From NCBI RefSeq assembly GCF_000716335.1, contig NZ_JOBL01000099.1, positions 57,974-121,973 of the forward strand: a stretch of DNA of 64,000 nucleotides, read 5' to 3'. The notes beneath the pieces were generated by a model that did no database searches, was not told where the DNA came from, and worked only from the letters and a program-made list of their open reading frames with translations. The position numbers and the translations under genes are program-made. This DNA comes from Streptomyces sp. NRRL S-118 (GTDB taxonomy: Bacteria; Actinomycetota; Actinomycetes; Streptomycetales; Streptomycetaceae). This document shows, in pieces, positions 37,548 to 60,526 of the stretch (its first letter is position 1; each line of letters starts with the position of its first letter).

Positions 37548-37620
37548 CGTCCGCCTCCGCCCATGGCTCCGAGGGAACGATTGTCGCTCCCCGGCCGCAC
37601 CCGGGGATACGCAGGCGCGT

Positions 37621-37678
37621 CCGATCGCGTTCAACCCGATCGCGTCGATCCGATCGCGCTCAACCCGAACGCGTCGGT
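37621..37678. repeat. 29-bp imperfect direct repeat
   Basis: Two adjacent 29-base units (37621-37649 and 37650-37678) built on CCGATCGCGTTCAACCCGA; they differ at only a few positions. It lies in the spacer between the starts and ends of DoxX and the caspase-like gene. Confidence 0.9.
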
Positions 37679-37717
37679 CGGCGCGTCGGAACACGAGCGG
37701 CCCCCGGGCCGGCCGGC

Positions 37718-37756
37718 GCACGGCCGCGACCGGGTCGGGCCAGGTCGCGGCCGTGC
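37718..37756 (-). terminator. Terminator hairpin after the caspase-like gene
   Basis: A perfect 14-bp stem (37718-37731 with 37743-37756) with an 11-base loop starts three bases beyond the stop codon of the minus-strand gene ending at 37759. No clear T-run follows. Confidence 0.65.
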
Positions 37757-37758
37757 GG

Positions 37759-40700
37759 TCAGTCCATCGGCCCCGGGGACCGCGGCACGAGCTCCCACGC
37801 CCGCCGCACGGCTGCCGCGACATCCGGAACATCCATGCCGAGGTCCTTCAGCCGCGCGGCGACGGTGGTGACGTCGGTGCGCAGGCGGTGCGCGGCGACG
37901 AGCAGATGCTCCAGTCCGACGGTTTCGTCGAGCGGCAGCACGTCGCCGTGGACGGCGGCGTTCTCCTGGAGCAGGAGCATGTCCCGCTCCCTCGGGTGCT
38001 CGTCGGGATACACGGCGTCCTGCAGCGTCAGCCCGGCGGCGCGCATCCGGTCGGCCGTATCGAGCACGGTGCTGTTGCTCTGGTTCGCGGTGGTCCATAC
38101 GTGCGCCGCGGGAACGAGGCCGTTCTCCAGGACGTCCTCCACCCACGCGTCCCGGCCGCTCAGCCGGAGGAGAAGGGCGTCCTCGGCGACGGCGGAGAAG
38201 ACGGTGTCCCTGCCGAAAACCTCGCAGCCCAGCTCCAGCAGCCGGTTCCTGACCGCGCCGACGGACATCCCCATCTCCCTGGCCTTTTCCACGACGTGCT
38301 GCGTGGACACGGGCAGGTCCGGCGGCAGCCATCTCCGCCGCCTGTCGTAACTGTGGCTCAGCAGGCAGAGATCCTCGTCGGCCGGAGCCTCCCACGTGCC
38401 ACCGGGCGGCTCCGGTACGTGCAGACCCCGCACGCGCAGCCGCTCGGCCGTTTCCTCCATGGTCCAGCCCTTGTCCGCGGACACACAGAGCAGGTGGGCG
38501 AGGGGCACCACGGGCCCGGTGTCCCCCGGTCCGTACGGGATCCACGGCACCGAGAGCCGCATCTCCTCCTGGAGTCCGAACCACTCGGGCTCCGGACCGG
38601 GAACGGGGTCGACCGTCATGCCGAGCTCGACCAGCAGGGCGCGGGCCTTGACCACCGTGGTGCCGAGGCGCGCGGCGCAGACGGCGACATGGGCGAGCGG
38701 GACGGAGCGCCGCGGATCGAGTCCCCGGCGGCTCCGGCCTTCACCGACCGTCACCTGTGTCAGGAGCACCTGGTCGTCGTTGCGGAGCGTGGCGGGGAGG
38801 ACCTGATCGGGCACCTGGACGGACAACGACCGCAGCCGGTCCCTGACCTCGCTCAGCGACGCGTCCGTCTGGGCTGCCAGCACGTGCAGGTCGAGAAGCG
38901 TCACCGGAAGGTTGAGGTCGAGGGGGGAGCCGTCGTACAGCGGAAGCGTGAGCAGCTCGGCATGGTCCGGCACCGGACCCTCGTCCGGCATCCCGGGCAC
39001 CTCGTAACCATGTGCCTGGAGGAGGAGTGCCGCCTCCCGGGGGGTGCTGGAGTTGAGCCTTGCCAGCCGGTGGACGAAGGGCAGTCCGGCCGCGCGGCGG
39101 CCGTTCCGCTCGTCCGGCAACGGACTGGGCCACCTTCCCGATGCGGCCGAGACGTCGTCGGGCCCGGGAAGCTCCCCCTGCGCCTCGAACACCGCCCGGA
39201 CGTCCGGAATGCTCATTCCGGTCTCCTTGGCGGCGGCGACGATGTGCGCCGCCCGGTCGGAACTCCGCCCGGAGACGTGCACCCATGGCGGGGTGCCGTT
39301 CAGCTGGCGGCTCAGGAGCCGCCGCAGGGTGATCGCCTCAGCGCTTTCCGGGGCCCGCAGCGCCTCGCACGGGCGGACGTCCAGACCAAGGTCCTCCAGC
39401 AGGTCCAGGATCTCGGCGGGCGACAGCTCGGTGCCGTCGAGCGCCTTCAGGACGTGCCGTGCGCTGACCCGCTCACCGGGGGCGAGGTAGGGGAACCGGC
39501 CGTCGGCGTCCGTGCTCAGGACGATACGAAGGGAGGTCAGCGGCACATCCGTGACCGGCAGCCGGTGGCGCGGGGGCCAGCCCAGCTCGTCGAGCCGGGC
39601 GATGACCCACTCGTACGCCTCGTGCAGTTCTTCGGCGTAGTCGAGCAGTGCCCCGGGCAGGGGCTCACGGTCCCAGGTCACACCGCCGGGGCCGCTGTCG
39701 AACCCGAGGACGACGCTGTCCGACGGCAGCGCCGGCCGCAGCACCGCCGTGGTGAGGTCCGGCGGGCAGAGCTCCTCGCCCAGCGCGGCGCGCACGTCGT
39801 CGGCGAAGTGTGCGACGAGCCGCCAGAGCAGGATGTGCTCCGGCATCGTCGGGCTCCACGTCGCCTCGTACGTGCGGCCTGATCGCGAGGTGAAACCGCG
39901 GAGCCAGCTGTTCCGGAGCTCACGGTCCCCCGCGAAGTAGCCCGTCCGGGCCATGTCGATGACAGCGCCGTCCAGCTCCCGTTGCGCCCGGCGCGCGATG
40001 AGCCCCTCCACCACGGCATCCGCCAGCCTGGGAGCCGTCCGCGTGATGTCTCCCAGCCACCGCTCGGTGCACACCTCGCTCTCCGCGAGCCGGTTCGCCG
40101 ACTGCTTCCTGCGCAGGAGGGCGAAGACGGTGCTCGTGACGTCGTCGACGACGCGGCGGCGGTCCACGGACAAGCGGGGTGCGCGCGGGTCCCCCTCGCC
40201 TTTGATGGCCTTCCCCTTGAGGTTGATCACCGCACCGCGCACGTCCATCTTCTCGGCGACGCGCCGCTCCCCGGTGCGGCGGTCGGTGGTGAACCAGCAG
40301 CCGTCGACGGCGATGCCGTCCACGAGCAGCGCTCCGCCCTCCTCGCACCAGAAGACCTCAGCCTTGTCGTCGGCGACGACGGCGCCGCCGGCGGAGAGGG
40401 CGGGGTGGGGACCGGTGTTGAGCCGGCTGCGGTACTCGCCCGGGAGCCAGGTGTCCTCGTCCGCGGGTCCGTTCACCGGCCGGTACCAGGCCTCCGTGTG
40501 GAACTCCGCGACGCCCAGGACCGAGCGCAGCACCTGCACGCAGGACAGGTCCGTGGCGTCCTCCCTGAGCCACCAGCGCACCCGCGTTCCGCAGGGGTCG
40601 TCGCAGAAGGCGGTCTCCTCCTCGCTGGTGGTCACCTGGAAGAGGTGGTCGGGGCCGGCGATCGCGACCTTGAGCAGGGGCCCCTCGTCACGCCGGGAGT

Positions 40701-42915
40701 CGGACTTCCGGGTGGTGATCTCCACTTCGTCGGCGAGCATGAAGTAGCTGAGCACGCCGATCCCGAAGCGGCTGTTCTCCTGGAACGGGATGCCCAGGTC
40801 CTCCCAGATCTGCCGCTCCTCCTGGAACGACGGGAGATCGGCCAGCCGGACGCCGCCCTGGGCGAACGCCTGCAGCAGTTCGACGCGCCCCATGCCCGAG
40901 CCGTTGTCGACGCACTCCAGGTACATCCGGTTGCCTTCGACGCCCTGGGAGACGGTGATGCGCCCCGCCCAGGTCCGCTCGTAGCCCCGCTCCATGGCCA
41001 GGCGTTCCTGCCGCGCCCACCGGACGCGGCACGCGTCCATGGCGTTCTGGTACAGCTCCCGCAGGGCGAAATGCCGCTCCTGGTACAGCTGCTCCCCCAC
41101 CAGCAGTTCGCGCACCTTGGTCCCGTCGAGCTCGAACCGCCGCACGACCGGCAGGAACCTGGGCCGGCCCGACTCGGGGTCCTGCACCGGCCGCACCTCG
41201 ACGTCCGACGCGCGCAGCGGCAGGCCGGACAGCTGCCGCCGGTCGAGGTCGCCGCACAGCAGCCGGTCCAGAGTCGTCACGTGCTCCTGGAAGGCGGCCA
41301 TCAGCGCGGGGTAGTCGCAGGCGGCCCGCAGCCGCACGATCCCGCCCGAGGCGTCCCCGGCGGACGGGATGATCCATTCCGCCTCGCCGACCGCCCGGCG
41401 GACGTGGGCGAGGCCGATCCGGTCGGTGCCGCCGATGTGCTCGACGAGCACCACCGGCAGTTCGTCGGTGTCCAGCGCCATGATCTGCGCGGCGCACAGC
41501 AGCGGCCCCACGACCTCCAGGCGAACCTCCGGGTCCGTGCCGTCCGACGCGCTCCCGAGCAGGTCGGTCAGCACCTCGCCGCCGTGCTGCATCACCTGGA
41601 ACAGCCGGCCCATCCGCTGGCTGGTGCACAGCTCGGTCAGTTCGTCGGTGCTCCGCAGCATGCGCCGCATGAAGGTGGAGCACTCGCTCGTGTGCCGGTG
41701 GAAGTCCCCCGGCCTGGCGTGGGTCCGGTGGGTGACCCACGCCGTGACGACGTCCCGGTCCCGCCTGCGCCGCCGCGCGTCGACGGTGGTGTCGGTCTGC
41801 CGCCGCAGTCGCGGGTACGAGGACCACTCGTCGGCCAGGTCCCGGTCGGCGCGCGACACCAGCTTGACCCGGAAGCCGTGGTACAGCGCGGGGGCCAGCG
41901 CGAGCAGCGCCGCCTCGGCCGCCGAGAAGCGCACCTCCCGCGGCAGGGCGCGGATCAGCTCCGACAGCCGGCTCGCCGCCCGCTGGTCGGCCTCCCAGTC
42001 GAGCCACGGGTCGTCCTGCACCCGGGGCGGGACCTGTTCCAGCCAGGTGCGGAGGTTGCCGATCACGGTCAGCACCTCGTCGCGGTACGCCTCGGCCTCG
42101 GCCCGGTCGTCCACCCGGCGCCACGCCTCGTGGTCGCGTATCCGCTGCTCGCGCACGCGGTGCGGCTGCTCGCGGACGGGCAGCAGCGGGAAGAGCCGGC
42201 CGCAGGATCCCTCGCCGAGGGCGGGCCGCTGCGGCGGCAGGGGGTGGGGCTGCCGGGCGCCGATGTCGGCCATCGCGTCGGCCAGCCGCCCGGTGAGGGC
42301 CTCGCCGCGGAGGTCCCCACGGGCATCGGCCAGCACCTCCCGCAGCGCCTGGGTGAAGAGGCTGTAGCGGCCCCCCGGGGCGCCTTCGGTCCCGCCGACG
42401 GCGGCCTGTTCCGCCGGTTCGCAGGCCATCAGGAAGCCGAGCTTGTCGGTGCCGCGCGGGGCGTCGTACAGCGGCCCGCCGGCGGCGCTGTCGAGCGGGT
42501 CCCTGTCGCGGCAGGCGTCGACGACGAAGAGGACCTTCTCGGCTCGGCCGGCGTTGACCGGGTCGCCCCAGCCGTCGTCCAGGTCGACGTTGGTCTGCTT
42601 CAGCGTCTTGATCCCGCCCGCCGACGAGGGGACCGAGTCCGCTCCGGCGAACCAGTGCTTGCCGCCGTACTCGAACCCGTGGCCGCTGAGGTAGACGACG
42701 AGGTGCTCACCACGCCGGCCGCTGTCGATGAAGGACTCGATGCGCCGGATCAGTTCGGCGGACGTGGGATCGTCGCAGCCGCTGTCCGGATCGATCTCGT
42801 ACCCCTGGTCGGCGAGGGCCTCGGCCACCTGCGCGTACTCGTCGCGGAGGTAGGCGAGGCCCGGCCAGTTCTCGTAGGCGGGGACGAAGAGCAGGAGTGC
42901 GCGGTGGGCCCCCAT
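37759..42915 (-). CDS. Caspase-like peptidase fused to HSP90-type ATPase and C-terminal repeats (putative conflict-system protein)
   Basis: 1718 residues, by far the largest gene here. Residues 1-210 form a caspase/peptidase C14 fold: MGAHRALLLFVPAYENW opens it, the catalytic His79 is in VVYLSGHGFEYGGKHWF, and Cys135 in VLFVVDACRDRD. Residues ~230-560 are helical, with no known domain. Residues ~615-760 form a GHKL ATPase of HSP90 type: E620 and N624 in LRELYQNAMDACRV, D670 in ECVDNGSGMG, and GIPFQENSRFGIGVLSYFML. Residues ~1130-1710 hold about nine similar helical units ending LGxxVP (for example RDRLRSLSVQVPD, RLRVRGLHVPE, RLKDLGMDVPD). I infer an ATP-gated peptidase that triggers defence or cell death; the target is unknown. 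The small gene upstream is six bases away. Confidence 0.88.
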   Translation of the reverse strand: MGAHRALLLFVPAYENWPGLAYLRDEYAQVAEALADQGYEIDPDSGCDDPTSAELIRRIESFIDSGRRGEHLVVYLSGHGFEYGGKHWFAGADSVPSSAGGIKTLKQTNVDLDDGWGDPVNAGRAEKVLFVVDACRDRDPLDSAAGGPLYDAPRGTDKLGFLMACEPAEQAAVGGTEGAPGGRYSLFTQALREVLADARGDLRGEALTGRLADAMADIGARQPHPLPPQRPALGEGSCGRLFPLLPVREQPHRVREQRIRDHEAWRRVDDRAEAEAYRDEVLTVIGNLRTWLEQVPPRVQDDPWLDWEADQRAASRLSELIRALPREVRFSAAEAALLALAPALYHGFRVKLVSRADRDLADEWSSYPRLRRQTDTTVDARRRRRDRDVVTAWVTHRTHARPGDFHRHTSECSTFMRRMLRSTDELTELCTSQRMGRLFQVMQHGGEVLTDLLGSASDGTDPEVRLEVVGPLLCAAQIMALDTDELPVVLVEHIGGTDRIGLAHVRRAVGEAEWIIPSAGDASGGIVRLRAACDYPALMAAFQEHVTTLDRLLCGDLDRRQLSGLPLRASDVEVRPVQDPESGRPRFLPVVRRFELDGTKVRELLVGEQLYQERHFALRELYQNAMDACRVRWARQERLAMERGYERTWAGRITVSQGVEGNRMYLECVDNGSGMGRVELLQAFAQGGVRLADLPSFQEERQIWEDLGIPFQENSRFGIGVLSYFMLADEVEITTRKSDSRRDEGPLLKVAIAGPDHLFQVTTSEEETAFCDDPCGTRVRWWLREDATDLSCVQVLRSVLGVAEFHTEAWYRPVNGPADEDTWLPGEYRSRLNTGPHPALSAGGAVVADDKAEVFWCEEGGALLVDGIAVDGCWFTTDRRTGERRVAEKMDVRGAVINLKGKAIKGEGDPRAPRLSVDRRRVVDDVTSTVFALLRRKQSANRLAESEVCTERWLGDITRTAPRLADAVVEGLIARRAQRELDGAVIDMARTGYFAGDRELRNSWLRGFTSRSGRTYEATWSPTMPEHILLWRLVAHFADDVRAALGEELCPPDLTTAVLRPALPSDSVVLGFDSGPGGVTWDREPLPGALLDYAEELHEAYEWVIARLDELGWPPRHRLPVTDVPLTSLRIVLSTDADGRFPYLAPGERVSARHVLKALDGTELSPAEILDLLEDLGLDVRPCEALRAPESAEAITLRRLLSRQLNGTPPWVHVSGRSSDRAAHIVAAAKETGMSIPDVRAVFEAQGELPGPDDVSAASGRWPSPLPDERNGRRAAGLPFVHRLARLNSSTPREAALLLQAHGYEVPGMPDEGPVPDHAELLTLPLYDGSPLDLNLPVTLLDLHVLAAQTDASLSEVRDRLRSLSVQVPDQVLPATLRNDDQVLLTQVTVGEGRSRRGLDPRRSVPLAHVAVCAARLGTTVVKARALLVELGMTVDPVPGPEPEWFGLQEEMRLSVPWIPYGPGDTGPVVPLAHLLCVSADKGWTMEETAERLRVRGLHVPEPPGGTWEAPADEDLCLLSHSYDRRRRWLPPDLPVSTQHVVEKAREMGMSVGAVRNRLLELGCEVFGRDTVFSAVAEDALLLRLSGRDAWVEDVLENGLVPAAHVWTTANQSNSTVLDTADRMRAAGLTLQDAVYPDEHPRERDMLLLQENAAVHGDVLPLDETVGLEHLLVAAHRLRTDVTTVAARLKDLGMDVPDVAAAVRRAWELVPRSPGPMD

Positions 42916-42921
42916 CCCGGC

Positions 42922-43293
42922 TCAGCCGGCCGTGCGGCTGTCGGGCGCCTGGAACACCAGGGTGATGGCTCCCTTGCCCTGCACCTCGCTGGTGCCGATG
43001 AGCTGGAAGCCGCCCTTGGCGGACACCTCGAAGGAGACCTGCACCTCGCGCAGCGGGAACGCCGAGCCGGGCTCGGCGACCCGCTCGAAGATCTCGCGCA
43101 GCGCGGCGACGTTCCTCTCCACGCTCTCCCGGAACCGCTCCGTGGCCACGGACACGGCGGCGACGTCACGCACCCCGCGCCGGCCCTTGAAGACGACCTC
43201 GGCCGAGGAGTCGACGCCCTCGCCGTCGACGAGGATCTCCAGCTCACGCGCCGGCCGCACCGGCTTCCTGTCGTCACCGCTGTACACCGTCAT
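42922..43293 (-). CDS. Small beta-rich protein linked to the caspase-like gene (Pepco/Trypco-like)
   Basis: 123 residues, ending six bases before the caspase-HSP90 gene, so co-transcribed and probably co-translated. Sequence features: an N-terminal segment ELEILVDGEGVDSSAEVVFK, a helix (ERFRESVERNVAALREIFER) and a C-terminal strand series LREVQVSFEVSAKGGFQLIG then GKGAITLVFQAP. The layout, a helix followed by alternating-polarity strands with a KGGFQ/KGxITL rhythm, resembles the small proteins named for co-occurring with peptidases (Pepco, Trypco2) in predicted conflict systems. The family assignment is from pattern memory and is the least certain part. It may bind or restrain the peptidase. 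Confidence 0.75.
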   Translation of the reverse strand: MTVYSGDDRKPVRPARELEILVDGEGVDSSAEVVFKGRRGVRDVAAVSVATERFRESVERNVAALREIFERVAEPGSAFPLREVQVSFEVSAKGGFQLIGTSEVQGKGAITLVFQAPDSRTAG

Positions 43294-43385
43294 GCCGTGC
43301 CCACGTTCCCTTCGTCGACGTCATCGTCCCGACCCTGGCGATCGTACGGAGACCGGCCCAACTTCCGCCGGAAAAACGGAGGTTG

Positions 43386-43697
43386 TCATGCCGTCACATC
43401 GATGACCATCCGGTTGGTCACCGCTCCGGACGCGGTGACGACCTGGACGTCGGTCCAGCCCGGCGCCACCTCCCGCGGGACGGTGATCAGCGGCGCCAGC
43501 AGCCCGCCGTGCGCCCGGTGCAGGTGGGCGGCCCCGGTCAGCAGGACGCCCATGACCGCCGCGGCGGCGGCAGCGGTGACGCGGGCCGCCGTCCAGCCCG
43601 CGTCACCGGTCCATGCGGCCGCCGCCTGCCCCAGGACCATCAGCGCGACGGCGCCCCACACCGCGTACGCGTGCGGCGGCGGACGGAGTGCAGCCAT
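43386..43697 (-). CDS. Two-TM protein with C-terminal soluble tail (possibly 3' part of a frameshifted gene)
   Basis: 103 residues from an ATG at 43697. TM helices: AVWGAVALMVLGQAAAAWTG (~11-30) and AARVTAAAAAAVMGVLLTGA (~35-54). The tail, LLAPLITVPREVAPGWTDVQ then VVTASGAVTNRMVIDVTA, looks beta-stranded. The start is doubtful: the only purine-rich sequence (GAGG) is one base from the ATG. The frame overlaps the end of the 88-residue ORF upstream by 58 bases, and that ORF has a good RBS. The two may be one gene broken by a single-base slip at the CCGCCGCCGC run near 43675-43684. Either way a membrane component sits 92 bases upstream of the caspase-associated pair, on the same strand. Confidence 0.55.
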   Translation of the reverse strand: MAALRPPPHAYAVWGAVALMVLGQAAAAWTGDAGWTAARVTAAAAAAVMGVLLTGAAHLHRAHGGLLAPLITVPREVAPGWTDVQVVTASGAVTNRMVIDVTA

Positions 43698-43906
43698 GCC
43701 TCGCGCAGCGCGGGCACCCGTTCGGTCACCACCTGCGCGGAGCGGGTCAGCTCGTCGGACACCCAGCGCCGCGACGCGCCGTCCGGTATGCCCCGGCCCG
43801 CGGCGAGCTCGTCGCGCCGGGCTCCGAAGGCGGCCACCGCCCGCCGGTGCTCCTCGCGTGCCTCGTGCGTGCAGCAGCCGCACCGCCTCGCCTCGCGCAC
43901 CGCCAT
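43640..43906 (-). CDS. Small Cys-containing helical ORF (possible 5' part of the membrane gene)
   Basis: 88 residues; ATG at 43906 with GGAAGGGG six bases upstream, the best RBS in this neighbourhood. It begins MAVREARRCGCCTHEAREEH, with a CxCC-H cluster that could bind metal. It continues as amphipathic helix (EEHRRAVAAFGARRDELAAG; SDELTRSAQVVTERVPALRE) and then ends in an Arg-rich, unfolded-looking tail (SVRRRTRTRCGAPSR). That tail is what one expects after reading into a wrong frame. If the slip is corrected, a helical cytosolic domain would lead straight into the TM helices of the next ORF. It is probably the first gene of the caspase/HSP90 operon. Confidence 0.55.
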   Translation of the reverse strand: MAVREARRCGCCTHEAREEHRRAVAAFGARRDELAAGRGIPDGASRRWVSDELTRSAQVVTERVPALREAWLHSVRRRTRTRCGAPSR

Positions 43907-44072
43907 GCGGGCCCCTTCCCATGTCTCGACACCCGACAAGGAAAAGGAATTCTTTCGTACGAACGATCGCGCACACACCTCTCGCCGGAGTGAAAGGCGG
44001 CCCCGCGAATTGACCCGGGACATTGACGCCCGCCGCGCGCGGCGGCGCCGCGACTCGTCGCCGGACCCGGTA

Positions 44073-53125: not shown

Positions 53126-55657
53126 TCAGGGCTGCCGCACCCGGAACGAGTCCAGCACGGTGTCGAAATGGCGCTTGAGCTCATCGAGGCGCGCGAGCGG
53201 CGCCGAGACCCACACGCTGTACGTCCGGCCGCCCTCGTCCCAGCAGATGTCGTACGTGCGCCGGGGGCCGCCCTGCGCTCCCCGGGCGGCAGGGAAGCCG
53301 TCCCAGGTGAACTCGCGCAGCGCGGCGGGCAGACCGTTGTACGTGGTGGGGGTGACCTTCGCCGCGCGGTAACCGGGGTTGTCGACCGGGCCGTCGGCAT
53401 GGGAGCGGCGCATGGCCGCGAGCGGGCCGCCCGTGACGGGCTGCCCGATGCGGACACCGATCCGCACCGCCCGGTCGGGCGACATGTAGTAGACGCGCTT
53501 GCCGTCGGTGCTGCGGAGGTACCCCTCGGGGACGATCAGCGAGAAGCCGCCCGGGTCCACGACGGCTCGGTACCCGGCGGGAACCGGCGTGGACCGGGTC
53601 GGGGCGGGGGCCGGGGCCGGATTCCGGGTCGGCGAAGGGGCGGGGGCGGGGGCGGCGGAGGACGTGGGTCTCTCCTGGGGGGAGGCGGTGACCGTCGTCA
53701 CGGGCGGCACGGCGTGGCTGCCGCCGCGGTTGTTCACGAGGTCCTCGCGCACGAGGAGCAGGGCCGCCCCGCCGGCCCCGGCAAGGGCGGCGGCGAGCAC
53801 GACGGCGGCGATGACGGGAGTGCGTGCCGGGCTCCGCGCCGGCTGCGTACGGGTCCGGGTGGTGGGGGACGTGGCGGCAACGGCGGCCGTGGCCGCGGTC
53901 GTTCCTGCCGCGACTCCCGCGGTGGCGGCCCTCACGGCGGCCACCGTCGCGGCGTCGGCCGCGGCCGCGGCGGCCCCTGGGCCTGGTCCGGGTCCGGGTC
54001 CGGGTCCGGAAGAGGATGCGGTCGGCGCCGGCGCGGTGGGCTCGGTCGGGTCGCGGGGGTCGGCGGGGGCGGACGGTACGGACGGGGGTGCCGGTGCCTG
54101 CGGCGTGGCCCGGGTGGACGGCGCGTACGGAGCGGACGGAGCGGACGGATGTGATGGGCCGGCCGGTGACGACGGGTCCGACGGGGTGGCCAGGGCAGTC
54201 GGGTCCGGAGGGGCGGACGGGTCCGGAGGGGCGGACGGAGTGGGCGCGGCGGATGACGGCGGCGGGGCGGGGGCGGCCGGTGACGCGTACGGGCCGTCAG
54301 AGGCCGGGCCGGCCGCGGTCGCGGCGTCGTCGTCGTACGGCGCACGAGGTCCGTACGGCCCGTACGGCTGGTACGGCCCGTACGGTTCGTACGACTCGTA
54401 GGGCTCGTACGTTTCGGAGGAATCAGGGGGCTCGTGCGCCCGCGACGACTCGGAGGCCCCGTACGGCTCCTGTCGCTGCGAGCGCCGGGACGGCCAGGGG
54501 AGCGAGGAACGCGCGGAGCGCCCGGACCTCTCGGGCCGCTCGGGGTCCGGGGGGCGCCGCGATGGCGGGAAGTGCTGGGACTCCTGCTGCTCCTGGGATG
54601 ACGGATGGTCCTGGGACCGCTGATGCTCCTGCCCGGCGTCCTGGGACGGCTGCCGGCCCCGCGGCGACGACTCCTCCGGCTCGGAGGCGGCTCTGGGCGC
54701 GCGGTTCCACCGGTACCGCTGGCCCCCGCGATCCCTGCGGCCGGCCCGGCCGGCACGACCGGCGCGCTCGGAACGGTCGGCGCGCTCGGAACGGTCGGGG
54801 CGGTCGGCGTCGGGGCGGTGCCCGGGGTCCGGCCGGTACAGCGGGGTCGTCCCCGTGACGACGTACGCCTCCAGCAGCCGCTCCGCCTCCGCCGCGCGCA
54901 TCCTGCGCTCCGGGTCGCGCTCCAGCAGCGCCCGTACGACGGGGAGCAGCGGTCCGGCCGCCGCCGGTGTCCTGACGTCCTCCTCGACGACCGCGTGCAG
55001 CACGCCGCCCAGCGAGTCCCGGTGGAACGGCGACTGGCCCGTCAGCGCCGCGCACAGCAGCGCGCCCAGCGACCACAGGTCCGTCTCCGGCCCCGCCTGC
55101 GCGCCCTGCATGCGCTCGGGGGCGGTGTACTCGGGGGAGCCGACGAACATCCCCGCCTCGGTGAGCGTCGTCGCACCTGCCAACTGTGCGATGCCGAAGT
55201 CGGTGAGGACGACCCGCCCGGTGCCGTCCTCCAGCAGGACGTTGGCCGGCTTGAGGTCCCGGTGCAGCACCCCCAGGGCGTGCGCGGCGCGCAGCGCGCC
55301 CAGCAGGGCGAGTCCGATGCGCGCCGCCTCCGTCGCGTCGACCGGGCCCCGGAGCGCCAGCAGTTCGGCGAGGGAGACGCCCTCGACCAGCTCCATCACG
55401 ATGTAGGGGGTGCCGTCCTCCTCGACCACGTCGTGGACGCAGATGACGTTCGGGTGGTGCACGCGGGCGACGGCACGTGCCTCACGCAGCGAGGAGTGCG
55501 GGGCGGTGCCGGCGTCGACGTGGATCTCCTTGACGGCGACGCGGCGGCCGAGCAACTCGTCGAACGCCCGCCAGACGGTTCCCATGCCGCCGCGGCCGAG
55601 CCGGGATTCGAGCCGGTAACGACCGGCGATCCGCCGCTGCTGTCCCAGTCCGGACAC
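53126..55657 (-). CDS. Membrane Ser/Thr protein kinase, array copy 1
   Basis: 843 residues from a GTG with AGAGGGGATG upstream. The Hanks kinase domain (~12-270) is complete: GRGGMGTVWRAFDELLGRRV, VAVKEIHVD, HRDLKPANVLLEDGTG, DFGIAQL and GSPEYTAPERMQG. A ~340-residue Pro/Ser/Tyr-rich linker follows, then a TM near ~640 (VIAAVVLAAALAGAGGAALL). The extracellular domain of ~140 residues begins PAGYRAVVDPGGFSLIVPEG. There are no PASTA repeats. This ectodomain recurs in the three neighbouring kinases. It is last in the minus-strand kinase series; 27 bases separate it from copy 2. Confidence 0.94.
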   Translation of the reverse strand: MSGLGQQRRIAGRYRLESRLGRGGMGTVWRAFDELLGRRVAVKEIHVDAGTAPHSSLREARAVARVHHPNVICVHDVVEEDGTPYIVMELVEGVSLAELLALRGPVDATEAARIGLALLGALRAAHALGVLHRDLKPANVLLEDGTGRVVLTDFGIAQLAGATTLTEAGMFVGSPEYTAPERMQGAQAGPETDLWSLGALLCAALTGQSPFHRDSLGGVLHAVVEEDVRTPAAAGPLLPVVRALLERDPERRMRAAEAERLLEAYVVTGTTPLYRPDPGHRPDADRPDRSERADRSERAGRAGRAGRRDRGGQRYRWNRAPRAASEPEESSPRGRQPSQDAGQEHQRSQDHPSSQEQQESQHFPPSRRPPDPERPERSGRSARSSLPWPSRRSQRQEPYGASESSRAHEPPDSSETYEPYESYEPYGPYQPYGPYGPRAPYDDDAATAAGPASDGPYASPAAPAPPPSSAAPTPSAPPDPSAPPDPTALATPSDPSSPAGPSHPSAPSAPYAPSTRATPQAPAPPSVPSAPADPRDPTEPTAPAPTASSSGPGPGPGPGPGAAAAAADAATVAAVRAATAGVAAGTTAATAAVAATSPTTRTRTQPARSPARTPVIAAVVLAAALAGAGGAALLLVREDLVNNRGGSHAVPPVTTVTASPQERPTSSAAPAPAPSPTRNPAPAPAPTRSTPVPAGYRAVVDPGGFSLIVPEGYLRSTDGKRVYYMSPDRAVRIGVRIGQPVTGGPLAAMRRSHADGPVDNPGYRAAKVTPTTYNGLPAALREFTWDGFPAARGAQGGPRRTYDICWDEGGRTYSVWVSAPLARLDELKRHFDTVLDSFRVRQP

Positions 55658-55684
55658 GGCACATCCCCTCTGCTTGCGCCGAGG

Positions 55685-57589
55685 TCACTCCTCGGCGGGA
55701 CGCCAGCCGCGCAGCACGGTGTCGAACTGCTTCCGAGTGGTCGTCCAGTCCTCGGCCGGAGACGACATGTACAGCGCGTACTCGGTTCCGTCGTCCGTGT
55801 AGTACACCTGGTCGATCGCGTGCCGCTTCCCCGGATGGTCCTTGGTCTCCACCCAGGTGAACTCCCACAGACAGGATTCCAGTTGATCACGGAACGTGTT
55901 CGCTTGCAGCTGCTTCCGTGCATACTGGGGCAGCCGTTTCTTGAGCCCTTTCTCGATGTCGAGCATGTGCAGGCACGGGGTTTCGAAGTCCGGTGCCGGA
56001 TCCTTGCTGATCCGGATGCGGTGGCGGCCGTTGTCGGGGGTGTAGTCGATCTGGTTGCCGTCCAGGCGGCGCTTCCACCCGCGCGGCACGAAAAGGCTGA
56101 AACCCTCCGGATCCTTGACGCGTTCCCAGCCGTCCGGCACGGACGTGGCCACCGAAGGATCACCGGTCGAGGTCCGGCCCGACGGGTCGCCCGCGAGCGT
56201 GCCGTCGCCGCCGTACAGCGTCACGACGAACCCCGCGGCGCTGCCGACGACGGCGGCGAGCGTCACGACGAGAGCGGCCATGCGCCACCGGGGCACGCTC
56301 CCCGCGTCCTTGCCCGTCGCGGTCGCGGCGGGAGCGGCGCCTGAGGCCGGAGAGGCCCCGTGGGCGTGTGCGTCGTCCGCGGCAGCCGCGCCCGCGCGAG
56401 CATGGCCCCCGTCGGCGGAGCTGCCGCGAGCGGCGGCCCTGCCGGAGCCGGAGGGCCCGCCCGCGTCACCGCCGGCCGCCTTCGCCTTCCGGGCCCCGCC
56501 TGCCGCCCCCTTCCCCGTGCTGCCTGCTCGGACCGCTCCGCTCGCTTCGGCGTCGGCGTCGGCGTCGGCACCGGCGTCGGCTTCGCCATCGGCGCCCGAA
56601 CCGGTGCCGGTCCGGGCCTTGCCGGGGCCGGAGGCAACGCTGTCATGCCGCGTCGAGGCGCCCGCGTCCTCCAGGACCTTCGTCGCCGCCGTACGGTCGG
56701 CCTCGTCCACCCGCTGCGTCGGCACGTACGCCTGGGCCGCGGCCGGCGTGCGGCCCTCCATGGCCTCCAGCAGCATGCGCTCGGTCTCCGCGGCGTCCGG
56801 GCGGTCCGCCGGGTCCTTGCGCAGCAGCGCGGTGATGACGGGCTCCAGCGCCCCGGCGTACCGCGCCGGTTGGGGCTCCTCCGTCACCACGGCCTGCATG
56901 GTGCTGATCGGCGACGAGCGGCGGAAGGGCGAGGTGCCCTCCACCGCCGCGTACAGCGTGGCTCCCAGCGACCACAGGTCGGATGCGGGCCCGGGGCGGC
57001 CGCCCCGTACCCGCTCGGGCGCCAGGTAGTCGATGGACCCGACGAGTTCTCCGGTACGGGTGATGGTCGAGTCGCCCTCGATGGCGGCGATCCCGAAATC
57101 GGTGAGCAGCACCCGGCCGTCGCGAGCCAGCAGGACGTTGCCGGGCTTGACGTCGCGGTGGAGCACCCCGGCGGCGTGCGCGGCCCGCAGCGCGCCCAGC
57201 ACGTGCAGTCCGATGCGGGCCGCCTCGCGCGCCTCGATACGGCGGTTTTCGGCCTCCTTGGCGGCGTCGGCGAGGGAGGGACCGTCGACGTACTGCATGA
57301 CGATCCAGGGGCGGGCGTCGTGCTCCAGCACGTCGTGGACGGTGACGACCCCGGGGTGGCTGATGCGGGCGGCGGCGCGCGCTTCCTTCTGTGTACGGGC
57401 GTGCAGGACGACCCGGTCCGCCTCGGAGACGTACTTGCCCGCCGTCAGTTCCTTGACGGCGACGGTCCTGTGCAGGACTTCGTCATGGGCGCGCCAGACC
57501 TTGCCCATGCCACCGCGACCGATGCTTTCGGCCAATCTGTATCGCCCGGCCAGTACCAGACCCGCAGCCGTGTCCTTGGAGTGTTCCAC
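55685..57589 (-). CDS. Membrane Ser/Thr protein kinase, array copy 2
   Basis: 634 residues from a GTG at 57589. Complete kinase domain (~12-275): GRGGMGKVWRAHDEVLHRTV, VAVKELTAG, LHRDVKPGNVLLARDGRVLL, TDFGIAAIEG and GSIDYLAPERVRG. An Ala/Gly/Asp-rich linker contains a DADADADAE run. The TM (MAALVVTLAAVVGSAAGFVV) is at ~430-450. The ectodomain GWERVKDPEGFSLFVPRGWK has two Cys (FETPCLHMLD, QLESCLWEFT), likely a disulfide. Close in sequence and design to copy 1, and probably in the same transcript (27-base gap). Confidence 0.94.
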   Translation of the reverse strand: MEHSKDTAAGLVLAGRYRLAESIGRGGMGKVWRAHDEVLHRTVAVKELTAGKYVSEADRVVLHARTQKEARAAARISHPGVVTVHDVLEHDARPWIVMQYVDGPSLADAAKEAENRRIEAREAARIGLHVLGALRAAHAAGVLHRDVKPGNVLLARDGRVLLTDFGIAAIEGDSTITRTGELVGSIDYLAPERVRGGRPGPASDLWSLGATLYAAVEGTSPFRRSSPISTMQAVVTEEPQPARYAGALEPVITALLRKDPADRPDAAETERMLLEAMEGRTPAAAQAYVPTQRVDEADRTAATKVLEDAGASTRHDSVASGPGKARTGTGSGADGEADAGADADADAEASGAVRAGSTGKGAAGGARKAKAAGGDAGGPSGSGRAAARGSSADGGHARAGAAAADDAHAHGASPASGAAPAATATGKDAGSVPRWRMAALVVTLAAVVGSAAGFVVTLYGGDGTLAGDPSGRTSTGDPSVATSVPDGWERVKDPEGFSLFVPRGWKRRLDGNQIDYTPDNGRHRIRISKDPAPDFETPCLHMLDIEKGLKKRLPQYARKQLQANTFRDQLESCLWEFTWVETKDHPGKRHAIDQVYYTDDGTEYALYMSSPAEDWTTTRKQFDTVLRGWRPAEE

Positions 57590-57685
57590 TTGCCCCCGCC
57601 CGTTGCTCAGGAGGCCAAGGTTACGGAGGGTGGTGACCGGGGCGAAACCTCGGGGGCGCCACGGAGACCTCTCCGTGATGCGGAC

Positions 57686-60526
57686 TCAGCGGGTGACGCG
57701 GTAGGCGGTGACGGCCTGTTCGTAGATTTCGGTCACCTTGTCCCGCTGGCCGTCCGGGCCGATGACCTGGATGACGTGGTAGCGGCCGTCGACCACGAGG
57801 GCGAGGTTACGGACGTACACCTCACGGCCGTTGGTGTCCTGCCAGGTGAACTGACCCTCCGCCATCACCTGCTGTCCGACGTCGACGCGGCGCATTCCGG
57901 TGACGGACGCCCAGGAGGAGTCGCGCCACGGCTGCAGCTCACGCTCCTTGGAGCGCTGGTACTCCAGGGGGTCGCTGCCGTTGGCCTGCACGGTGTCACG
58001 GCCGGGGACGACGACGAGCGCGTAGTCACCGCCCGTATAGCGGACCTGGCCCACGTCGTTGATGGGGCTGCGCCGCCACGTCGCGTCCACACCGATCCGG
58101 AACCCCTCCGGGTCCTCCTTCAGCACGTAACCGGCGGCCAGGGCGGGCGCGGTCGGCGTGTCGGCGTTCGGTGAGGGAGCCTGGCTGGCCGGCCCGGTGG
58201 CCGAGGCGGTGGGCCGGGACGGGGCGGTGGGACCGGTCGTCCCCGGGGCGGTGGCGGGCGGCTGCGGGGCACCATGGCCGCTCGGCCGGCGGTCCTCCGT
58301 CCCGGCCTTGGGCATGAACAGCACGGCGTACGCCACGGCCGCGGCCAGCGCGAGCAGGATGACGATCAGGAGCGTTCGCCCGAGCGCCTTGGGTGCCCGG
58401 CCGACAGCGGGCGCCCGGGGGTGTTCCCGGGGGACGCCCGTGTGCTCCCGGGCCGCTCTCGGCCCGCGGGCGGGCTTGGGCTTCTTGTGGCGGTGGCGCC
58501 CCTGGACGGCGGCACCGCCGCGCCTCTTGCGCACCAGTTCGCCGCGGCGGCGCACGATGGGCAGCCGGGTGTCGTCGACGACGGACGGCATCGGGACGAC
58601 GGCGGTGCCCGCGTCCGGCTCCGGCGCCGAGCGGATGAGCGAGCGCAACCAGCCGCGCAGTTCCTCGAAGTCGGGGCGCTCGGTGGGGTCCTGGCGCAGC
58701 AGCGACTCGACCACGGGGCGCAGCGGGCCGCACTCCTCCGCGTACGCGGGCGGCTCGGCGCACACCATCTGCACCAGCTCGGCGGCGCTCTCCTCGGGGT
58801 ACGGCGCGTGCCCCTGCACGGCGCGGTAGAGGAGCGCGCCGAGCCCCCACAGGTCGGTGGCGGGAGTGATGGGCGGTGCGAGCTGCCAGTTGCCGTGCAC
58901 GGGACCGGCCTGCTCGGGGGCCCACCGCTCGGTGACGGCTCCCACGACGGCGATCCTCGTCTGGCGGGCGCGCTCGGCCGCCAGCGGTGTCGCGGGACCG
59001 CGGTACGGGGCGGCGGGACGCCCGGCCGCGACGACCTCGTCCCAGCTGCCGGAGCCTGCTGCGTGACCGGACTCGCCACCGGATCCGGGATCGGACCCTG
59101 TACCGGGGCCGGGGCCGGATCCGCGGCCGGTTGCCGGCTCCCGCGTCTGCCCGGGCACGCGCGCGTGGCGCTGGGCGTCGGCCTTGAGCGCGGCGGGGTA
59201 GGCGGGGACCGGGCGCCGGTCGACACCGCTCCCGGACCCGGACCCGGCGCCGTGACCGGAGCCGCGTCCGGGGGTTCCGCCGGCCGGTACGGGGCCGTGG
59301 TCCGGGCCGTCGTGCCACGTGCCGGTCAACAGGGCGCGCGGCGCCTCGCCGTCGTGGCCGCCGTCCTCGTCCTCGTCCTCGCCCTCGGTCTCGTCGTAAC
59401 CGCCGTCGTAGGCGGGCTGGGCGGGTGGCTGGATCCCGGGCCGGGGCCACGGGTTCTGCTCGTACCCGGCGGGCAGGGTCCCCCCGGGCGGCAGGGCGGC
59501 GGCGGCACCGGCCTCGTCGGCGCGGGCGGCGGCGCGCACTCCGGCGCGGTACGCGGCGATGGCCCCCGCCCGGGGTGACCGCACGTCCACCGCGGAGGAC
59601 CTGCCCGGGTCCGCGCCGTACGCGTCCGACGCGGCCTCCGCATCCGCCGCGTACCGGTCGGGCCCGTGCTGATCCACCCCGTAAGGGCCGGAGGAGTCGG
59701 TTCCGTACGGGCGTGTGCCGTACGGCAACGCGGGGCCGGCCCCCAGGGCCGGGCCACGGCCGGAACCGGTGCCCGGATCGCCGTGGTCGTCCGGATCGCC
59801 GTAGCCGTCCGGATCGATGTCCGGGCCGGCGCCGGGGCCGGCTTCCGCCCGCTCGGTTTCGTCGTCCGGCTGCGGCACCGGCACGTAACCGCACAGCGCC
59901 TCTTCCGCCGCGCCCGCCGCGAGGCCCGTCAGGACGACCCGCCCGTCGTCGCAGACGAGCACCGTGCGGGCGGTGATGTTGCGGTGCACCCAGCCGTGCG
60001 CGTGCAGGGCGCGCAGGGCGGTGAGCACGTCCGAGCCGATCTCCGCGGCCCGGTAGGGGTTCAGCGGGCGCTCGGCGAGCAGGGCCGCCAGCGGGCGCGC
60101 GGCCACCAACTCGCTCACTATCCAGAGCGATCCCGCCTCCGCGAACACGTCGAAGACCTGGTCCAGGCGCGGGTGGTCCGGGATCTGGGCCGCGGCCTGT
60201 GCGGCCTCGATGGCCCGCCGAACGGCCGGGTCACTGGGCCGCCGCGTGGTCCGTCCGGCCGCCGCCCTGCGCGGCGCCGCTGCCGTCGACGTGTGCCCCG
60301 ACGCGCCGGAGGAACCGTACGTACCGTACGTACCGGCCGTACCGATCGCCCCTTCGGCGTCCAGCACCTCGGCGTCGACGACCTCCGGCAACGGCAGCTG
60401 CCGGATGAGGACCTCCTGCCCGCTGTAGGTGTCGAAGGCGCGCGTCTCGACGAGTTCGTACTCGTCAGAGGGCGGCAAGGGCAGGCGGTAGCGGTCGGCG
60501 AGCACCCTCCCCGCATAGTCGTCCAC
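57686..60526 (-). CDS. Kinase-like protein with degenerate active site (pseudokinase), array copy 3
   Basis: 946 residues from a GTG with GGGGAGG upstream. The N-terminal kinase fold is recognisable (SLWIVSELVAARPLAALLAE; WGLGALLYRAVQGHAPYPEE) but the catalytic set is gone. There is no G-rich loop; VAVK is replaced by QEVLIRQLPLP; HRD reads HRN in GWVHRNITARTVLVCDDGRV; and DFG reads TGLA. A very long Gly/Pro/Asp/Tyr-rich insert (~230-480) interrupts the domain. A TM near ~715-735 (LLIVILLALAAAVAYAVLF) leads to the same ectodomain type (LKEDPEGFRIGVDATWRR). It may bind ATP weakly or not at all and act as a scaffold or regulator of the three active kinases beside it. Confidence 0.92.
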   Translation of the reverse strand: MDDYAGRVLADRYRLPLPPSDEYELVETRAFDTYSGQEVLIRQLPLPEVVDAEVLDAEGAIGTAGTYGTYGSSGASGHTSTAAAPRRAAAGRTTRRPSDPAVRRAIEAAQAAAQIPDHPRLDQVFDVFAEAGSLWIVSELVAARPLAALLAERPLNPYRAAEIGSDVLTALRALHAHGWVHRNITARTVLVCDDGRVVLTGLAAGAAEEALCGYVPVPQPDDETERAEAGPGAGPDIDPDGYGDPDDHGDPGTGSGRGPALGAGPALPYGTRPYGTDSSGPYGVDQHGPDRYAADAEAASDAYGADPGRSSAVDVRSPRAGAIAAYRAGVRAAARADEAGAAAALPPGGTLPAGYEQNPWPRPGIQPPAQPAYDGGYDETEGEDEDEDGGHDGEAPRALLTGTWHDGPDHGPVPAGGTPGRGSGHGAGSGSGSGVDRRPVPAYPAALKADAQRHARVPGQTREPATGRGSGPGPGTGSDPGSGGESGHAAGSGSWDEVVAAGRPAAPYRGPATPLAAERARQTRIAVVGAVTERWAPEQAGPVHGNWQLAPPITPATDLWGLGALLYRAVQGHAPYPEESAAELVQMVCAEPPAYAEECGPLRPVVESLLRQDPTERPDFEELRGWLRSLIRSAPEPDAGTAVVPMPSVVDDTRLPIVRRRGELVRKRRGGAAVQGRHRHKKPKPARGPRAAREHTGVPREHPRAPAVGRAPKALGRTLLIVILLALAAAVAYAVLFMPKAGTEDRRPSGHGAPQPPATAPGTTGPTAPSRPTASATGPASQAPSPNADTPTAPALAAGYVLKEDPEGFRIGVDATWRRSPINDVGQVRYTGGDYALVVVPGRDTVQANGSDPLEYQRSKERELQPWRDSSWASVTGMRRVDVGQQVMAEGQFTWQDTNGREVYVRNLALVVDGRYHVIQVIGPDGQRDKVTEIYEQAVTAYRVTR

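Follow-up and report, generated by a model that had tools for sequence, protein, structure and literature searches.

The window analysed here is a stretch of 64,000 nucleotides from Streptomyces sp. NRRL S-118, and it carries on its minus strand a cassette of two genes, a small one for Pepco and a large one for a protein that joins a caspase, an HD-type domain, an Hsp90-type ATPase and a set of wHTH repeats. Pepco comes first, and its stop codon is separated by 6 bases from the large gene's start codon. The features of the locus are as follows (residue numbers are those of the large protein):

42922..43293, minus strand: Pepco gene, 123 residues, first of the cassette (Pfam E 2.5e-16)
37759..42915, minus strand: gene for the 1718-residue caspase / iHD-CE / Hsp90-type ATPase / wHTH-repeat protein (open reading frame, Pfam, full-length homologues)
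42175..42915, minus strand: caspase domain (Peptidase_C14, paracaspase-like), residues 1-247 (Pfam, fold, conservation)
42679-42681, minus strand: H79, caspase dyad
42517-42519, minus strand: D133, two residues before C135
42511-42513, minus strand: C135, caspase dyad
41188..42147, minus strand: iHD-CE, predicted inactive HD-type domain, residues 257-576 (Pfam E 1.2e-38)
40546..41133, minus strand: GHKL/Bergerat ATP-binding domain, residues 595-790 (NCBIfam, profile and structure-model matches, conservation)
41056-41058, minus strand: E620, ATP site
41044-41046, minus strand: N624, ATP site
40906-40908, minus strand: D670, ATP site
40078..40545, minus strand: Hsp90-type middle domain, residues 791-946 (structure-model matches, conservation)
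40159-40161, minus strand: R919, invariant, corresponding to the catalytic arginine of Hsp90 as judged from alignment ends
37828..39537, minus strand: eight wHTH-HSP90_Na-assoc repeats, residues 1127-1696 (Pfam and a custom repeat model)
37618..43384, no strand: stretch inserted relative to the empty site of L117, a genome of the same genus (blastn)

A preliminary description had placed a caspase, an Hsp90-type ATPase and repeats within one 1718-residue protein, and all three are real by Pfam, NCBIfam, fold and conservation. Every module scores above its Pfam cut-off except the ATPase, which falls below its own, and the cassette contains the whole Pfam set of PF24401 (iHD-CE), PF24410 (wHTH-HSP90_Na-assoc), PF24393 (Pepco) and Peptidase_C14. 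Full-length homologues are 37-91% identical to the large protein, the nearest named relative at 90% and the next at 57%, and relatives are already catalogued over their full length as 'caspase family protein' or 'wHTH domain-containing protein'; by sequence the protein is a further divergent member of a listed family, not a new kind. PADLOC 2.0.0 gave only its generic caspase model for the large protein (E 4.7e-4) and no match for Pepco. When the query is compared with homologues of 37-57% overall identity, the GHKL part is 55-67% identical and the 100-residue blocks from residue 1111 on are 19-62% identical, the last of them being kept better than the other repeat blocks (38-62%), while the linker between caspase and iHD-CE (206-256) diverges as much as the repeats (20-42%). 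The residue conservation given below refers to 55 aligned rows, the query among them; 44 have the caspase domain and none is TIR-fused.

Peptidase_C14 matches residues 6-201 (E 4.1e-8; 33.6 bits against a cut-off of 21.4), where the preliminary description had expected it, and the His79/Cys135 pair that it had named is kept in all 24 full-length sequences with a caspase domain (query included). H79, D133, C135 and R136 are invariant in the 44 caspase rows, and D25, the second candidate acidic residue, varies. Since a PDB sequence search with the caspase part alone gave no significant peptidase (metacaspase at E 0.11, MALT1 at 0.32, and a designed repeat protein as the top row at E 0.0016), the assignment rests on Pfam and the fold. 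An acidic residue two positions before the cysteine selects Arg or Lys in MALT1 and metacaspases, human caspases having Gln there, and because D133 lies at what we take to be the MALT1 basic-specificity position, the predicted cleavage is most likely after Arg or Lys. The source genome has three more caspase-family matches, on contigs C51, C1 and C26, where the open frames are 293, 684 and 1175 residues long.

The domain that follows matches iHD-CE with 133.8 bits (cut-off 27), and much of the same stretch is matched by HD-CE at the lower score of 57.8 bits. The '-CE' family names are said to have been coined in a NAR paper of 2023. D302, R312, E334, H493 and C533 are conserved in this region, and a search of the conserved columns of residues 257-576 in all 55 rows found no adjacent His-Asp pair. 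A second enzyme of HD type was ruled out as a candidate on this lack of a conserved HD dyad; iHD-CE is, as far as the alignment can tell, a dead HD domain that would act as a connector between peptidase and ATPase.

The ATPase was recognized by NCBIfam as Hsp90 over residues 603-795 (E 2.5e-12), and the HATPase_c_3 match at 616-741 lies under its Pfam cut-off. A profile built from 21 family members finds E. coli HtpG structures (E 1e-13), while the scores with the HtpG equivalog models of NCBIfam are far below their cut-offs (46 against 455 bits, and 39.1 against 371). E620 and N624, both singled out beforehand, are present in 55 of 55 rows, as are G674, G718, G720 and R919; D670, the third, is present in 54. 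The catalytic arginines of Hsp90 proteins are R380, R402, R417 and R392, and those GHKL proteins that have an arginine in the middle domain form closed dimers with ATP bound. Here a Bergerat ATP site is followed by a middle domain with an arginine, the place of which is judged from alignment ends, and this part of the protein is a predicted N-plus-middle Hsp90-type ATPase with nucleotide-binding residues and, with the same reliance on alignment ends, a putative trans-acting arginine. The Hsp90 matches listed stop at model residues 936-969. No Hsp90 C-terminal dimerisation domain was recognized in the structure model, which stops before residue 1201, so dimerisation would have to have another source.

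The C-terminal part consists of eight stretches matching wHTH-HSP90_Na-assoc (E 2e-52; 175.8 bits against a cut-off of 23), and a custom repeat model likewise gives eight units within residues 1127-1696. wHTH repeats are often nucleic-acid binders, so it could be supposed that the eight units bind foreign DNA or RNA and that the ATPase reads out the binding, as in restriction-linked GHKL proteins. This we consider improbable: the name Pfam gives to the repeats, the weak similarity that the GHKL part shows to restriction enzymes of the BbrUII type (E 0.018) and the McrB/McrC-type neighbours of a relative in Azospirillum all point towards it, but the repeat blocks are much less alike among homologues than the GHKL part is. 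Repeat divergence can also reflect weak constraint instead of a sensor role.

Pepco scores 60.6 bits against a Pfam cut-off of 27. Its association with the large gene was followed in 79 loci, the best-scoring of 362 relatives in genome contigs, a sample that leans to close relatives and in which some contigs are cut. Of the 28 in which custom profiles recognized a caspase domain, 22 have Pepco as the immediately preceding gene in the same orientation; none of the 51 others, which have the ATPase and repeats without a recognized caspase, has it there. The six exceptions are varied: EACC1 takes the place of Pepco in L028 (E 1.7e-17) and L067 (E 1.4e-10), L037 and L075, from Frankia, are fused to TIR and their caspase is dead, and neither Pepco nor EACC1 was found directly upstream of the caspase gene in L007 and L036. 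Plasmid relatives were also followed; of the 15 listed among 114 plasmid records, 10 are annotated as HtpG/Hsp90 and 3 have no annotation, and those pursued were two copies in Azospirillum and a partial relative in Streptomyces collinus. The two Azospirillum brasilense copies share a megaplasmid, one (L129) with Pepco upstream (Pfam E 5e-19) and the other (L115) with no Pepco match. Directly downstream of the latter are McrB-like AAA and McrBC genes (L115 10554-14238; PF10117 E 1.4e-30). The S. collinus relative, on plasmid pSCO1 (L116 1212-6173), is a GHKL protein of 517 residues; trypco2 and fxsT genes lie some 3 kb away, and an IS481 transposase is near. Another plasmid, of Streptomyces, has Pepco (Pfam E 1.7e-16) followed by a caspase protein of 527 residues in which the iHD, GHKL and repeat profiles match nothing. 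From this pair and the counts above, Pepco goes with the caspase and not with the Hsp90 part. Trypco1 is also matched by 10 of 23 Pepco members at E values up to 1, the best being 2.8e-4. Given this kinship and the pairing with the caspase instead of the ATPase, the most likely role of Pepco is to bind the caspase domain, as an inhibitor or as an activating adaptor. Its fold model is of low confidence (pLDDT 68.6), with no PDB match at E <= 0.001. The preliminary description had treated the large protein as a system on its own, and the evidence indicates instead a two-gene cassette with Pepco.

No conserved third neighbour was seen in the 35 largest gene clusters listed, save for the shared synteny of close relatives, the clustering having used a simple gene caller that missed the core gene at some loci. 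In one locus (L016 13908-14495) a stand-alone HD domain gene (Pfam HD, E 1.3e-11) follows a caspase-less core, and similar Actinomadura loci have a gene within about 20 bases after several caspase-less cores, probably genus synteny.

A caspase-like stretch could be compared in 83 rows, drawn from 52 of 121 proteins, 28 loci and 3 plasmid loci, with some proteins doubled. The His, Asp and Cys are all in place in 78 of these and not in the other five: L037 and L075 have lost the Cys, and P0106, P0117 and P0120 both His and Cys. All five are TIR-fused, and a sixth TIR-fused row, P0068, retains the three residues. The caspase thus appears usually to be dead where a TIR was added, which is the trace expected if effectors are swapped on an unchanging core. 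Outright substitution of TIR for caspase in P0106, P0117 and P0120 was considered and rejected, as the caspase-like stretch remains and has lost its catalytic residues. The caspase of the window has an intact dyad and no TIR. In a tree built by a quick method from the ATPase part (80 rows; one of the 79 loci omitted as too short and two rows added), caspase presence switches at least 4 times, 2 of these being forced by starred branches. Six Streptomyces-type rows, the window's among them, form a starred clade.

The sequence comparisons and models give the domain content, the intactness of the active sites, the pairing of the genes and the exchange of modules, and the function that these suggest is that of a two-gene conflict cassette, for immunity or regulated death, in which Pepco partners a receptor-effector protein activated by a clamp; we would place this reading about midway between right and wrong. 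The divergent repeats, alone or with Pepco, would recognize a cue of infection or damage, and the cue would allow ATP to bind to the Hsp90-type module, which would shut into a dimeric clamp. This would pair two N-terminal effector domains and switch the peptidase on by proximity. The active peptidase would then cut a pro-effector or a protein of the host, with Arg or Lys the most likely residue ahead of the cut, whereupon the cell would stop growing or die. Caspases and TIRs are activated by clustering, and STAND/NLR ATPases are the nucleotide switches of apoptosome-like receptors. A broader proposal is tentative and leans towards being wrong: the Hsp90-type clamp would not be a chaperone here but would serve an immune receptor of bacteria as its nucleotide switch, in a STAND/NLR-like role, and ATP closure triggered by the wHTH repeats would dimerise exchangeable N-terminal death effectors, either a caspase or a TIR with the caspase left dead. 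The dead caspases of the TIR-fused relatives support effector exchange and add nothing about the clamp. The same domain facts would also suit the opposite polarity, the one suggested in the preliminary description, with the ATP-bound Hsp90-type module and iHD silencing the caspase until ATP loss or a cue releases it, and a pseudo-enzyme lock would fit the position of the dead HD domain, flanked by the peptidase and the ATPase; caspase-for-TIR exchange on one core is easier to picture through clustering than through a lock shaped to one active site, and an inhibitory clamp is in our estimation unlikely. Because 51 of the 79 relatives have no recognized caspase, the ATPase-repeat core may serve a separate function.

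The genomic setting speaks against a conflict cassette. The single iHD-CE, HD-CE and Pepco matches of the source genome are all here, along with one of its four caspase-family matches, and the order at the site is guaA, aldolase, an uncharacterised gene, the cassette (Pepco and large gene), DoxX, PspC, histidine kinase and response regulator. The locus is in a housekeeping neighbourhood, and a defence-island or prophage setting, the context proposed for checking in the preliminary description, was ruled out, the scanned neighbours being housekeeping genes or matching no family. A phage collection gave one weak match, to the GHKL part only. A further point against the conflict reading is the set of six caspase loci without adjacent Pepco, among them L007 (S. 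fulvorobeus), where an orthologue of the large gene is at the window's site and no Pepco was recognized; L127 has the orthologue with Pepco at that same chromosomal site. The aldolase is present in 32 of 37 genus genomes searched, and the cassette is absent from the site in all 10 aldolase-bearing genomes inspected (L117-L126), three of which (G004, G023 and G026) have an iHD-CE gene elsewhere. The flanks align with L117 as far as 37617 and again starting at 43385, and in L117 the two matches are 134 bases apart. Flanking genes were sought in L008, L009 and L011, of the same clade, and none were found. Such a one-site pattern may reflect an old insertion with repeated loss, or repeated insertion at one site. 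At about 43389-43918 on the minus strand, the uncharacterised neighbour gene looks broken relative to a 413-residue copy in L117 (3188-4426), with a middle stretch missing and a frame change, from decay or a sequencing error. Further off (53126-60526, minus strand), three consecutive long open reading frames open with motifs that by eye are glycine-rich and kinase-like.

A core-chromosome site adjoining guaA and a PspC/LiaF-like envelope-stress two-component set, shared by large-gene orthologues in two other Streptomyces, could instead indicate a regulated protease of development or envelope stress that cuts a host protein and is not defensive. This appears quite improbable: all 10 same-genus genomes that lack the cassette have the PspC set in this position, so the two are uncoupled; iHD-CE is patchy in the genus (28 of 150 genomes, the window genome counted); and Pepco, EACC1 and TIR, the partner modules of the relatives, are conflict-system components, in keeping with the kinship proposed in the preliminary description. 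With its conserved active sites, tight two-gene cassette and empty sites in related genomes, the locus is directly testable in Streptomyces. If the clamp reading were true, it would represent a second ATPase solution, beside STAND/NLR, for turning a sensed threat into caspase or TIR clustering, and a signalling role for Hsp90 folds.

Among the literature matches listed, which cover few subscription journals, there was no paper on the caspase/iHD-CE/Hsp90-type/wHTH layout, in line with the preliminary statement that no member of this exact layout had been studied experimentally, and the layout is not described in the parts consulted of PMC8195603, PMC10907252 and PMC11090510. HtpG/Hsp90 chaperones share with the large protein the fold of the N and middle domains and the ATP-site residues, but it scores below their equivalog cut-offs, is fused to other domains and has no recognized Hsp90 C-terminal domain. 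The nearest experimental precedent is the Canu caspase-nuclease system (PMC12799240), in which a MALT1-like bacterial caspase, likewise in an operon, switches on a nuclease and gives protection against phage. Ig-like domains and a pro-nuclease are part of Canu and neither was recognized in the window cassette, no nuclease was found among the scanned neighbours (some neighbouring open reading frames match no family), and the text of the Canu paper lacks the terms Hsp90 and HATPase. The nearest described plan is the EACC1-caspase two-gene system (System 4 of PMC7159879), mostly of actinobacteria, which like the cassette has a small 5' gene and a 3' gene with an N-terminal caspase and a variable C-terminal module. 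The text of that paper does not use the term Hsp90. The large protein scores 33.8 bits with the EACC1-associated caspase model (cut-off 140), and the window has Pepco, not EACC1, in the place where two relatives (L028 and L067) have EACC1 itself. Pepco is in turn akin by sequence matches to the Trypco1 adaptors of trypsin-based conflict systems; Trypco pairs with trypsins (PMC7159879), and here Pepco pairs with caspases.
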